From Halichondria panicea (lineage: Eukaryota; Porifera; Demospongiae; Suberitida; Halichondriidae), in the NCBI RefSeq assembly GCF_963675165.1, contig NC_087393.1:1079002-1143001 (forward strand): DNA of 64,000 bases, in the 5' to 3' direction. A model generated the notes under the pieces. It worked only from the letters and a program-made list of their open reading frames with translations, ran no database searches and was not told the DNA's origin. Position numbers and translations under genes: made by a program. Of the stretch, positions 46,752 to 64,000 are shown piece by piece (the stretch's first letter is position 1; each line of letters opens with the position of its first letter).

Positions 46752-47975
46752 ACACATGCAGTCCAATACATATGCAAGCAAGGGACTCTCCCATGAAGTT
46801 TTGTTCAGATTATGGTACACACTCATGCAGAGTCAGCCTGGGCTCAAAGAAAAAAGAGCTCGTATGATTATAACTAGCAAGCACCCTTATCATATACTTA
46901 TTCGATTTAAGGCGATACTTATAAAAAATTACGAAGCCAGAGGTCGGTGTTTCTTTTGGAGTTTGAAAAATTATGATGAAGTCATGGTGTCAAATAATTA
47001 TCAATGCATGCAGCAGTCACTACTTTAGAAGTTAGAAAATTGCCTACAGCTTACTGCACAGTAGCCTCGATCCCAGGCCGAGTTTTCGCTTTTATAACGG
47101 TTAGGCGAACAGCTAACTGCACAGCAACTCTTCATTTTGCATTAACGCGTCGATTAAACGTGCATGTGCTTTAACACAAAAAGATCTTTTGCCACTCACG
47201 ACGGTGGATAGCAATGGTTGCTATTATTTTTTGCTTGAAACCACGCCCCGTGCACAACCTCTATAATTATATAGATCTAGTTCAACGCCGTAAGAAGATA
47301 TTTTATGGTGCATGGGGGGGGGGGGCTTGAGGTGAAATTATTCATTTTTATGCTCTCAGAAATAACCGTATATATAGCGGGAAATTTTCGCGGATGCAAA
47401 TTTTCCCAGTACATAAAATAATCTGCAGAAGGCATATTACAGTCTGCCCCCAGCCCCCCTGGTTCTTACGGGCATGTGACCATAAGCTTCATGTCGCACA
47501 GCTTTGGTGCCTTAACCGAGGCATCATCAGCACCCGTAGTGCATTCAATGTAATCAGTATAATTGTATATAATTATACATGCAGCAAATTTAGCCACTTA
47601 CTTCTCCATCAGGGATTGCAGCACTGCTAGCAGTAGCTTGTTAACATTAGCTGCAAGTATATAGTGGGATATGCAAATGATGACTCACATGCAACTACAA
47701 ATTACTGTGGATCACCAAGATACTCATGCATACATGTAGAGCAATCACCCCGTGCGTTGTGAACTTCATCGCATAGCAGCAAAACCGATACAATAACTTT
47801 TTACCATAATGACCTTAGAATTATCACAAATCAGGAATGATTGCATGTGAATCTAAAGCAACAATTAGAAAACAGTGTTTTTTATCGCCTTCAAAGATCG
47901 CCTATTATACAAGTTTCAACTATATTTATGCCTCGGTGCGCATGCGCAAGCGAGGTATACGGTAGTGTGTTTGTA

Positions 47976-49312: not shown

Positions 49313-51314
49313 ATGGCTCATCTTGTTCCAGCTTGGCTTCTGGCTGCATATCTGGTTCTTTTTGTTGCTCATCTTGTTGCTCCAGGGCCTTCTTCAACTG
49401 ATAATAGTATTGCTCACGAACTGCATGTAGTGAATTAATTAACATCGAACATGTGAAAATTAAAGGTGTTACCTTCACGTTAATTATATATAGTGGTGGA
49501 AGGACTTTACCTGGGCCATCTTGTTGCCGCTGGGCATCCTTCCGCTGATAATAGTATTGCTCACGAACTGTATAATTACTGTTTATTCTCACGTAACAAC
49601 AAATTATGTGAACAACTATAATGGTGTCACTTTTGCATGAATTCCAGTAGTGTTGTTAGTGGAAGGGATATACTTACCTGGGCCATCTTGTTGCTTCAGG
49701 GCGTTCTTCAGCTGATAATAGTATTGATCACGAACTGCATGTAGTAAATTACATGCATATATCGAACATGATTAATGAGGTGTCACTTTAGCATGAATTT
49801 TAATCTGTGGTGTTAGTGTAAGGTACACTTATATGCCTGGGCCATCTTGTTGCTCATGAGAAGGCCAGATATTTATAGTATTACTCACAAACTGTAATAG
49901 TTATGACAATTATAATGTTGTGAACCAACTAAAGTTACTTTTGCATGAATTCTAACTATATTATAATATCACAGTAAAAACAGATTCGTTACAAACATCT
50001 CAAATAAAATGCGAAATTTAATGTAGAAATGACATAAATTTCTGTCCGGCATTTTAACACTAAAATACGATGATGCATCCCATATATATAACATATGTGT
50101 TTTTGCATATAGTTAGACACTTGTAGTATAGACTATATTTAGTTAGGCCTAGGTCATTAGAGTTATTTATACCTATAATTTCCTAGTTAGTCCTGTTTTG
50201 TGTGTATTTAAGTCAGTGCATGGGCTGTGTATTATATTCATGCAGTTTTACTGCCATGATCTTGTTGCTTACTGAACCCCTATCAGTTTAGCTAGTGACT
50301 CAGCTAGGCTAACACACTACACACTGTTTTGGAGGTGTCTGTGGGATTTAGAAGCCCAAAGGCACTGATTTAGTATCCCGAGCGTAGCGAGGGTACACTA
50401 CAAGTGGCTGAGGGCTTCTAAATCACATGGACACCGACAAAACAGTGTCTAGATACTAGTGCGCATGCACAAACCGCTTGATTACAATATACATGCATGA
50501 TTATTTGACAACGGAATACTATATGTATTGTATACTAAGTAAATTGGACTTAGTATACCTGCTCTGAGGCACTTTTCCCATGTACTTCCCATGTAGATCT
50601 TATCAACTAGTGTCTAAAGTGATGTTGTATATATAATTATATACATGTATACTTACCAGGGCCATCTTGTTGTATCTGAGCATTCTTCTGCTGATAATAG
50701 TATATTTGCTCACGAACTGTATAAAAATAATAATTCTCATATTCTCATACAACAACTATATCAAACATGTGAACCGACTAAAATTAATGGTGTCACTTTC
50801 GTATGAAATAATTATACTGGCCAGTATACTGTGGTTTGGCAGATAAAATTGTATCACACTTAAATAGAGCAGAATGACTTCATTATCCTCGAGACAAAAC
50901 TGCAAAATAGATTTGAAGTAAGGTCGTTTTTTTTAGCTGCGACTATTTTCTGAAATGCAGCCACCTCGCTATTCCAGCCATGCAAGCTACACTGTCCCAA
51001 GGGTGACTGGATTAACGAGAGTCTGTATATCATATATATATACTTGCAATGGGCCATCTTGGGATAATAATTATAGTATTGCTCACGAAATGTAGTAAAT
51101 TTTATGACAATTATAGTGAACCAACTAAATAAATGATGCATGCATGCATGTTATCTACTTTGGCATGAATTCTATAGTGGTGTTGGTGTAATGTATATAC
51201 AATCATATATATTATACCTGGGCCATCTTGTTGGTTTGAAGAGAGAGCAGAAGAGGCCACGGCCATATACAGGAGAGATAGCAAAGCCACACTGGCAATC
51301 ATTGAAATCTTCAT
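49313..51314 (-). CDS. Secreted repeat-peptide precursor built from symmetric 57-60 nt exons
   Basis: Exon 1 (51218-51314) starts at ATG and encodes a clear leader (MKISMIASVALLSLLYMAVA) ending in NQQDGP. Then come small exons, all phase 1 at both ends: 50657-50716 (60 nt), 49678-49734 (57 nt), 49511-49567 (57 nt) and a longer one, 49313-49420 (108 nt). Each encodes one unit of VREQYYYQRKDAQRQQDGP type, the last extended by a Gln/Glu/Pro-rich part ending EQDEP. Two further units (about 51052-51101 and 49840-49898) are decayed; the second has a stop and a GC donor. The unit boundaries equal exon boundaries, so skipping or duplicating an exon adds or removes exactly one repeat. The terminal exon is uncertain; a candidate acceptor lies near 49175. 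I recognise no family. Secretion is supported; peptide hormone, mucus or matrix roles are guesses. Confidence 0.75.
50321..50448. mobile_element. 128 bp MITE inside the repeat-peptide gene
   Basis: Ends ACACTGTTTTGGAGGTGTC and its near-complement run as inverted repeats for about 37 bases, around a centre containing CCGAGCGTAGCGAGGGTA. It lies in an intron between repeat exons. No sure target duplication was found. Confidence 0.75.
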
Positions 51315-53580: not shown

Positions 53581-54392
53581 CAGTGGCGTGTACAATGGGG
53601 GGCTTTGGGGGCTTGAGTACCCCCCTGTCCTCCCAGACAACCATGAAACTAATCCTATCACTCAGTAGCTAGCTAGCTAGCTAATTGTGCAGCTCCAGAG
53701 ATACATGCAGCTCTATCTCACGGTTACAAGTAATGACCACGCCCAATTGAGCATGTGCAATCAGCATTGCCATTGCCATTCCAATGTTGTTATGTAATGC
53801 ATAATAGCTGATCAAGATCCTCTGCACTCTCCCAGTCACCTCTTGCTCCACTGAGAGATACTGCAAAGCAATGACTAACACTAGAATTACTGGACATTCC
53901 CATTGCAGTGATTGACCAGTTTGCTAGGATGTACCCCTGGAGAATAGTGCATGGAGATCCTACAAGATAACTGACTCATAATCATGTCTTATTATCACAC
54001 TATGCATGTATTAGATCCCATTTGAATGTATTTAGCAGGGAACTATGAGCTATAGTATAGATTCTGGGCTACAAACCACAACATTATACATTTTGATACA
54101 CATAAAATTATTGTAGCTAGATGCTTTGTGTAGTAACATAGTAACAGAACTAGAATGGAAGAGAGAAGCTCTAGAGTATTTTTGGCTTTGTTCGAGAGTA
54201 GTAGGAGCCGCTCGTTTCTTGGGCAGTGTGCTGTACTTTTTTGCTGCAAGGCTGCATGGGGGAGGAGCTGAATGTATGAAAGACGCGCTGCAATAAATGC
54301 GGGGGCATAAAATCGCGTGTGCTATGCACACAGCCCCATTTTTTTCTGTGCTCTTGAGCACCCTCCTGCTTCAATCTCTAGAAACGCCCCTG
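53581..54392. mobile_element. 812 bp non-autonomous DNA transposon, 5 bp target duplication
   Basis: The left end CAGTGGCGTG and right end CGCCCCTG are inverted. CTTCC is duplicated at 53576-53580 and 54393-54397. Just inside the left end, GGGGGGCTTTGGGGGCTTGA matches the element at 15145 (GGGAGGGCTTTGGGGGCTGG), so the two belong to one family. No intact coding region. Confidence 0.85.
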
Positions 54393-54397
54393 CTTCC

Positions 54398-54740
54398 TAG
54401 TTATAGTTTTGACTCTGACCTTCCTAACTATATAGGAAGTGAATTGCCCTAATGGGCTTCCGTATTAGTTATTGGTATCTTTGATTTTATGATCATGCTG
54501 CATGGCACTATAGATGTTGTTAAACTGAGTATATCCAGCTATATATATACAACTGGATACCCCCACACCTTAATTGATTTGTCAAATTGGCAACATTAAT
54601 AAAATTAAAATAATTAAAATTAAATAAAAATTAATTATTAATAAATTATTTAATAAATTAAAATTCGTCGCCAAATTTACTCGCTATAATTATATACGGC
54701 TTATTATAATCACAAGCATCCAATTATGTGCTCTTACAGG
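54398..54740. other. AT-rich spacer
   Basis: About 340 bases, with an extreme A/T run at 54600-54665 (many AATTAAAAT words). No gene or element recognised. Confidence 0.4.
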
Positions 54741-62985: not shown

Positions 62986-64000
62986 TCAGCCAGAGATGAC
63001 CCTCTGCAGCATGGTGAGGGCAGTGTCCCCGTTGTCAGCTGGTACCTGCAAGGAGAGACATTTGTAAAGTTCGACATAATTTATAGAATACCGTATAGTA
63101 AACTTTCGCAGAATGACCGGATTTAATTTTATGGAATATCAGCCTTTTTTTATTAAATTTGTGGTGATAAAATTAATTAATGTTTGCGGTACGTGCTGAA
63201 TCAGCGAAAACCGCAAACACCCTTGAAATACACCCGGTTACGGTACATAGATTGTAGTTACAGGAATGGAATATCAACACACAGACAGACATTACACACA
63301 AACCCCTCACACCCACACACCTCACACATAAACCCCCACCCCTCACGCACCTCACACATAAACCCCCCACCCCTTACACACCCTCACCATGTGTCCAGCA
63401 TTGAGTATCCAATAGAAGGCGAGGTTTTTGTACGCCTGATAAAAGCCACCAGTGTGTTTCTTAGTGTGGTCAGTGTCAGGGTAGACAGGCATTTTCTTAG
63501 CAGCCTTAAAACTAGGCAGTCCAGTCCACTTGAGTTTGTCCATCCAAGCCACAGTGCCTGTAGTGATAAAAAGGTAATAATTATATGTAACCAGGAGTGC
63601 ATGAGTATGTAACTATAGCAGGATATAATTATCCCAATTAATTTCAGTGTTCCTTGCATCATCAGCACCTGTGTTCTAGTCCCTGGGTTTTTTCTTGTGT
63701 TTACCAATATGGGAACCAAACACATTCCTAAGTAGACTTCAAACAACTTTAATTGCCAACTCATCATGACCATGCAATAACCAGGGACTTACCTTGAGTA
63801 CAGCAGATGAGGTCCAGCTGGCCATTGTACACAGTCACATTTACCCCCATAGAGAGTAGCTTGTCCACTGTATGAGGGAGGGTGAGCGGGCATAATAAGT
63901 ATCACACAGATACAAGTACACCCCTCCCCACTAGCACAGACCTGTGCTGATGACATCCTTCATGAAGTCCACTCTTTGTTTCTCAAACACTTTCCCAGCT
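62986..64000 (-). CDS. SCPEP1: Serine carboxypeptidase-like gene, 3' part (block 3, cut by window edge)
   Basis: The last four exons are visible: 62986-63045 (stop), 63388-63557 (with NAGHM and the catalytic His), 63793-63867 (with YNGQLDLI and the catalytic Asp) and 63942 to the edge. Within these exons there are no lesions and near identity to block 1, including introns. The final intron differs, with an insertion at about 63090-63246. Whether the 5' part is complete cannot be seen. Confidence 0.88.
63090..63246. mobile_element. Probable MITE with ACCGTA-type ends in the final intron
   Basis: The stretch from ATACCGTATAG to CCGGTTACGGTA is absent from the same intron in blocks 1 and 2. It has short inverted ends (TACCGT / ACGGTA) and internal words TTTCGC and GCGAAAA in opposite orientation. 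Borders are approximate. Confidence 0.55.

Follow-up and report, generated by a model that had tools for sequence, protein, structure and literature searches.

What kind of product is made by a gene in which each repeat of the predicted protein occupies a small exon of its own? The question is raised by a gene on the minus strand of the window, a stretch of 64,000 nucleotides from contig C17 (NC_087393.1) of the sponge Halichondria panicea. A first-pass annotation read the locus as a secreted precursor whose repeat exons could be skipped or duplicated without loss of frame, so that one gene might yield a ladder of products. The reading favored here, at a rough probability of 0.45, is that the gene encodes an intact, secreted, low-complexity extracellular polymer rich in glutamine and tyrosine, of the matrix, mucus or adhesive type, with a length set by exon duplication. 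The matrix or adhesive role in this proposal is read from composition alone.

Exon Organization and the 3′ End

The gene begins with a leader exon of 97 nt (51314-51218, minus strand), which ends in phase 1 and encodes a signal peptide (MKISMIASVALLSLLYMAVASSA), recognized by inspection rather than by a predictor, and the half unit LSSNQQDGP. Four exons bearing repeat units follow on the same strand, all of them phase 1-1. Exon 2 (50716-50657) has 60 nt and encodes VREQIYYYQQKNAQIQQDGP, and exons 3 (49734-49678) and 4 (49567-49511) have 57 nt each and encode VRDQYYYQLKNALKQQDGP and VREQYYYQRKDAQRQQDGP. Exon 5 (49420-49313), of 108 nt, joins a unit head, VREQYYYQLKKALEQQD, to a tail, EQQKEPDMQPEAKLEQDEP. 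Each of exons 2-5 is directly preceded by AG and directly followed by GT, and the donor of the leader exon, GTATAA, is weak.

The first-pass annotation had described a secreted precursor with one symmetric mini-exon per repeat unit, and this description agrees with the exon map. Its finer points require some revision. The exon sizes that it gave (57, 57, 60 and 108 nt) are correct, while the transcript order is 60, 57, 57, 108. The unit motif REQYYYQ occurs literally in two of the four units, the others reading REQIYYYQ and RDQYYYQ. Moreover, the QQDGP ending attributed to every unit does not hold for the 108-nt exon, which ends in a non-repeat tail (QQDEQQKEPDMQPEAKLEQDEP), and the half unit NQQDGP that closes the leader exon itself had been missed.

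The earlier gene model also ended at 49313 and thereby overlooked a conserved terminal exon. Exon 6 (47650-47598, minus strand) encodes SNVNKLLLAVLQSLMEK followed by TAA, and it was found by comparing the downstream stretch of the window with the ends of related genes; it is kept in the paralogs on contig C6. The first four introns measure 501, 922, 110 and 90 nt, and 1662 nt lie between exons 5 and 6. When joined, the six exons form 432 nt that encode 143 amino acids with no internal stop.

The TAA of the terminal exon overlaps a donor-like hexamer, GTAAGT. A phase-2 splice donor of the form GTRAGT always reads as a stop, and GTRAGT stands at the terminal stop (TAA or TGA) in five of the six aligned genes, C6_1876 being the one that lacks it. 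Exon 6 may instead end at 47602 and splice to a few extra residues. In C6_1807, C6_1814, C6_1834 and C6_1840, a common acceptor lies 108-114 nt downstream, which would add two to three residues before a stop; in the C17 gene, neither of the two candidates listed for a next exon is convincing. This ambiguity between stop and donor makes the last residues of the protein uncertain. Neither AATAAA nor ATTAAA occurs in the roughly 890 nt that follow the C17 stop.

Properties of the Predicted Product

Past residue 21, the C17 product has no cysteine and consists of 21% glutamine and 10% tyrosine. The tyrosines are preceded by E/D-Q in all four units. Each unit has a single proline per 19-20 residues, and all four glycines found after the signal peptide lie within DGP. 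An amphipathic helix was considered as a candidate feature and rejected, the hydrophobic moments of seven peptides (the units and the terminal segment) being not clearly greater than those of shuffles (fraction at or above the observed value, 0.08-0.72).

A signal peptide followed by similar units, one per exon, would also be expected of a multi-copy peptide precursor, in which every exon encodes one releasable peptide. The conserved E/D-Q in four of four units could then mark the site of cleavage, with DGP as the other candidate, in place of dibasic residues. As far as the cited accounts go, there are precedents for both elements of this proposal: the skin peptide genes of frogs use tandem-duplicated exons (PMC3899252), and sponges excise proline-rich macrocyclic peptides (PRMPs) from ribosomal precursors (PMC11382151). 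Against it, the two dibasic sites of the C17 product are both inside units, with none at a unit boundary; among the paralogs, C6_1814 and C6_1876 have no dibasic site and C6_1834 has one. Amidated neuropeptide precursors carry Gly followed by Lys or Arg as amidation and cleavage sites, and no such pair was found in the C17 product. With one proline per unit, there is also no proline-rich core. In addition, the 642-nt repeat exon of one paralog and the leaders that precede lectin exons, both described below, are at least equally compatible with a structural chain. Among the alternatives to the polymer reading, a peptide precursor is the strongest, although it is regarded as rather unlikely.

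Decayed Exons, Coding Constraint and Tandem Duplication

Two decayed unit exons had been noted in the introns, and both could be located. The first, in intron 1 (approximately 51089-51045, minus strand), has lost its acceptor AG and its donor and has a shifted frame. The second, in intron 2 (49891-49837, minus strand), contains in-frame stops and has a donor changed from GT to GC. In their present form, both are unusable.

The intact unit exons, with exon 5 cut to its unit head, share 73-88% identity in all six pairs, at z values of 4.6-9.1 relative to shuffles. In their flanks, taken as 40 nt on the upstream side and 80 nt on the downstream side, similarity mostly falls close to that of shuffles, with some relic likeness, z reaching 4.6 upstream and 3.4 downstream among exons 2-5, where the downstream flank of exon 5 is partly its own exon tail, and at most 5.6 in comparisons with a decayed exon. 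The dN/dS ratio was 0.51 for the units (six pairs, with one codon of exon 2 omitted and exon 5 cut to the head) and 0.53 for the terminal exon (seven genes, 21 pairs), values that back coding constraint only moderately because the pairs are non-independent and the sites few. For the leader, the ratio of 0.96 (13 genes, 78 pairs, with a two-codon insertion of the C17 leader ungapped) gives no support for constraint. The leaders are near-identical at the DNA level, apart from this insertion in the C17 leader, and by eye the 5′ flank is largely common to nine C6 leaders and less so to C17.

The whole gene is contained in a head-to-tail duplication of about 20.9 kb, whose first copy spans 42379-63276. 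A second copy starts at 63277 and continues beyond the end of the window; the duplicated region, in which a 94% match starts a third copy, extends to window coordinate ~85568 on C17. Identity is 99.1% and 99.0% in the two aligned blocks, and a short stretch at 54011-54656 is left unaligned. All six exons are identical in the two tandem copies. At 0.4% divergence, about two exon differences would be expected, so this identity is weak evidence, and the duplication itself may be an assembly artefact.

These observations bear on whether the C17 copy is a relic, its exons being the remnants of once-coding repeats. The two dead unit exons are consistent with decay, as are the paralogs with frame breaks or stops and the missing canonical poly(A) signal close to the stop. 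The six exons are nevertheless open, bounded by standard splice dinucleotides and identical in both tandem copies, and pN is lower than pS in the units. Decay of the whole gene is considered very improbable.

Several features of the surroundings can be recorded separately. The repeat gene is followed on its strand by a gene (45777-42400, minus) that is presumably serine carboxypeptidase-like (SCPEP1-like); this neighbor has its own signal-like start and lies inside the duplication. Farther along, at approximately 10.4-36.6 kb of the window on the minus strand, there is a tandem array of segments about 89-96% alike. Their long open frames resemble one another (FVLPAASS...AGYLFSAFQSADNLTISAAAVSPSGNTTTYTDV...) and may represent a family of receptor-like genes. 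On another contig, C2, the peptide CGASYAF is encoded in a cluster at 656915, 659062 and 667864, which are three of the five pattern matches; for the one locus that was read, the solved structure that matched best was silicatein alpha (6zq3, E 2.2e-12), with cathepsins behind it. These sites suggest that the sponge is a siliceous one.

A Family of Leader-Bearing Loci

The family searches covered the 131-Mb genome from which the window comes. A DNA pattern for the leader, allowing three mismatches, matched at 20 places, 18 on C6 and two on C17, and a pattern for the terminal exon, allowing two mismatches, matched at 12, ten on C6 and two on C17. The reversed patterns, used as controls, gave no genome match in either case. 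Every one of the 12 terminal-exon matches is on the same strand as a leader and 712-4958 nt downstream of it. This pairing is the best indication that the leader probably shares one transcript with the unit exons. Judged by these matches, at least 20 loci bear the leader, and the window gene is no singleton. The leaders and related units are found mainly in two stretches of C6, at ~1.05-1.18 Mb and 1.79-1.88 Mb, and one leader match stands apart at 0.30 Mb.

From the 12 leader-terminal pairs, five were modelled end to end, namely both C17 copies, C6_1814, C6_1876 and C6_1834, and all five spliced models are open. Pairs outside this set include those with leaders near C6 1796.6, 1823.4, 1863.8 and 1870.5 kb. 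The modelled genes differ greatly in their repeat exons. C6_1876 has one internal exon. In contrast, C6_1834 comprises 15 exons, including 13 symmetric internal ones, and its open model encodes 414 residues. The REQ unit motif is present in twelve of the internal exons, of which nine measure 63-66 nt, two 114 nt and one 57 nt; the remaining one encodes QGYYQNADE repeats instead, and the donor of the leader exon (C6:1834428) is apparently GC (AG|GCAAGT) rather than GT. Within this array, the nine standard exons have a mean pairwise identity of 95% and ten introns a mean of 91%, and exon starts are spaced 173-240 nt apart; such high identity in exons and introns alike, together with this spacing, points to recent duplications of exon plus intron. 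In C6_1814, the repeats, mostly of 15 residues each, are instead contained within a single 642-nt exon.

Other members are less intact. The large repeat exons of C6_1807 (C6:1807481-1808125) and C6_1840 (C6:1841007-1841822) have frame breaks, part of the array reading in another frame (ATITIRHRCSRTVAQ), which may reflect decay or assembly error. In C6_1851, in-frame stops occur 34 residues into the sequence. The TADDWTPETPAEVDAMQEERP exon of the C6 genes had no C17 counterpart among the tblastn matches listed (E ≤ 0.01).

The earlier proposal that exon duplication changes repeat number without loss of frame is well illustrated by the four unit exons of the C17 gene and the 12 of C6_1834. Based on the gene models, the paralogs have come to differ in repeat number in two ways, through the duplication of exons and through repeats inside one exon. 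Growth by two routes would fit selection on total repeat content.

The same exons could in principle be used differently, through regulated skipping that yields products with different repeat numbers. All of the internal exons of the window gene (57-108 nt) are symmetric, the leader donor GTATAA is weak, and precedents are available in the micro-exon genes (PMC8293314) and in hymenochirin transcripts (PMC3899252), within the scope of those accounts. Symmetry, however, results whenever phase 1-1 modules are duplicated in tandem and by itself is no proof of skipping, and it is from exon symmetry alone that the isoform ladder is argued. Most splice sites of the unit exons also fit a simple consensus well. 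An isoform ladder made by regulated skipping is considered quite improbable.

Lectin-Type Relatives

Eight of the 20 leader matches have no terminal-exon match. Five of these, at C6 ~1063.9, 1066.5, 1086.4, 1102.4 and 1141.4 kb, precede an exon encoding a SUEL-like lectin domain; the other three, at C6 1150.4, 1178.5 and 300.6 kb, are outside the lectin comparison. In three of the five lectin loci, a unit-like exon (RQQHYYQLKN...) lies between the leader and the lectin exon. From phase and order, these leaders probably splice to the lectin exons. Over the 1.2-1.5 kb that follow each of the five C6 lectin exons, the terminal-segment motif was not found.

The lectin assignment is based on a profile of eight sequences, which matched the L-rhamnose-binding lectin of a sea urchin in PDB 5h4s (E 1.3e-11). 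Pfam SUEL was matched in all eight members, with a best E of 3.7e-5. Weighing against the assignment, a direct search of the genome with the Pfam SUEL model returned three places at E ≤ 0.01, none of them over the Pfam cut-off. More lectin exons are present on C5 and C11, where the upstream signal peptides are different. The window gene itself was also searched for a lectin exon, and none was found, the lectin query at E ≤ 10 matching only the units on C17. As a separate observation made by eye, an integrase-like retroelement frame (C6:1053.7-1054.5 kb, minus strand) is located just upstream of the lectin exon at C6:1052741.

Proposed Mode of Action

Taken together, the preferred reading of an intact extracellular polymer would assign a role to each part of the gene. 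The near-invariant leader exon would supply the signal peptide, the symmetric phase-1 unit exons the repeats, and the small conserved terminal exon a leucine-rich C-terminal segment. Repeat number is set in the genome, as the comparison of paralogs shows, by duplication and decay of modules of exon plus intron and, in some paralogs, by repeats within an exon. Once secreted, the polymer could be cross-linked through its Tyr, Gln and Lys side chains, and the relatives in which the same leader is followed by a SUEL-like lectin exon might act as glycan-binding partners. Exon skipping may occur, although an intact polymer would not need it.

A broader version can be imagined in which the family forms an exon-cassette system, a conserved export exon being joined to phase-1 repeat exons and terminal exons that are interchangeable, and the choice of exons within single genes giving secreted ladders that are rich in tyrosine and possibly cross-linked or of unit length. 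As a whole, this version is unlikely. The value of the family is that it allows one to trace, copy by copy, how secreted repeat proteins evolve, since in this one animal family the leader and terminal exons have stayed the same while repeat number has evolved by two routes, symmetric exon duplication and repeats within an exon. Moreover, the loci point to uncharacterised secreted sponge proteins, some of them apparently linked to lectin domains.

Comparison with Known Systems

The first-pass annotation knew of no described family with this unit, and the comparisons with Pfam, PDB, genomes and the literature likewise gave nothing convincing. The C17 products matched GIT_CC in Pfam at E 4.3e-5 (127 amino acids) and 0.0011 (143 amino acids), below the Pfam cut-off, and this match was read as coiled-coil composition and set aside; the other Pfam hits of these products were weaker still and also below the cut-off. 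Among three further C6 sequences, two had no Pfam match and one had nine matches, all sub-cut-off. The units gave a single match in PDB, at E 0.37. Pattern searches for relatives yielded 12 stretches in viral contigs and 50 in bacterial and archaeal genomes, none of which was confirmed. Five repeat motifs had no occurrence in the literature searched, a body of text to which most subscription papers do not belong. The family has so far been seen, by these sequence comparisons, in one sponge genome. The protein family appears new, while the principle of one exon per repeat is already known from frog skin peptide genes.

The micro-exon genes (MEGs) of schistosomes are also built from short symmetric exons that can be skipped without frame loss, according to the part of a review used here (PMC8293314). 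Both systems share exon symmetry. In contrast, most MEG exons do not exceed 36 bp and those of the window gene measure 57-108 nt; the MEGs seem restricted to schistosomes, and one repeat unit per exon, a feature of the sponge gene, is absent from the MEG account in that part of the review (PMC8293314).

Caseins offer a different parallel. They are secreted proteins with phase-0 exons and phosphoserine clusters, and no casein match was found in the Pfam scan of the C17 products and three C6 sequences. The casein genes CSN1S1 and CSN1S2 have acquired many small exons through exon duplication, skipping and conversion, as summarized in the cited work (PMC12470106).

Among sponge products, the precursors of PRMPs reportedly possess signal peptides and highly repetitive core units. 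In the account consulted, PRMPs are excised from ribosomal precursors encoded by the sponge (PMC11382151); the two systems are alike in being sponge-encoded, and the window units differ in having no proline-rich core. For the SUEL or L-rhamnose-binding lectins, the likeness lies in the exon that follows five of the family leaders, as identified by profile, whereas the window gene ends in a short leucine-rich segment.

The closest parallel in gene organization is with the frog antimicrobial peptides. In precursors of the frog type, basic cleavage sites flank each released peptide. The skin peptide genes of the Pipidae contain tandem-duplicated exons, each encoding one of the near-identical repeats of a secreted precursor, and hymenochirin transcripts with different unit numbers have been seen, for which alternative splicing was proposed in the available portion of that study (PMC3899252). 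As described there, the frog antimicrobial and caerulein precursors resemble the sponge gene in their signal peptide and tandem-duplicated repeat exons, the sponge arrangement being derived from genome sequence alone. Compared by description, the frog units release short bioactive peptides, whereas the sponge units are rich in Gln and Tyr and without dibasic boundaries. Finally, unlike the frog genes, the sponge family includes loci in which the same leader is accompanied by lectin exons.
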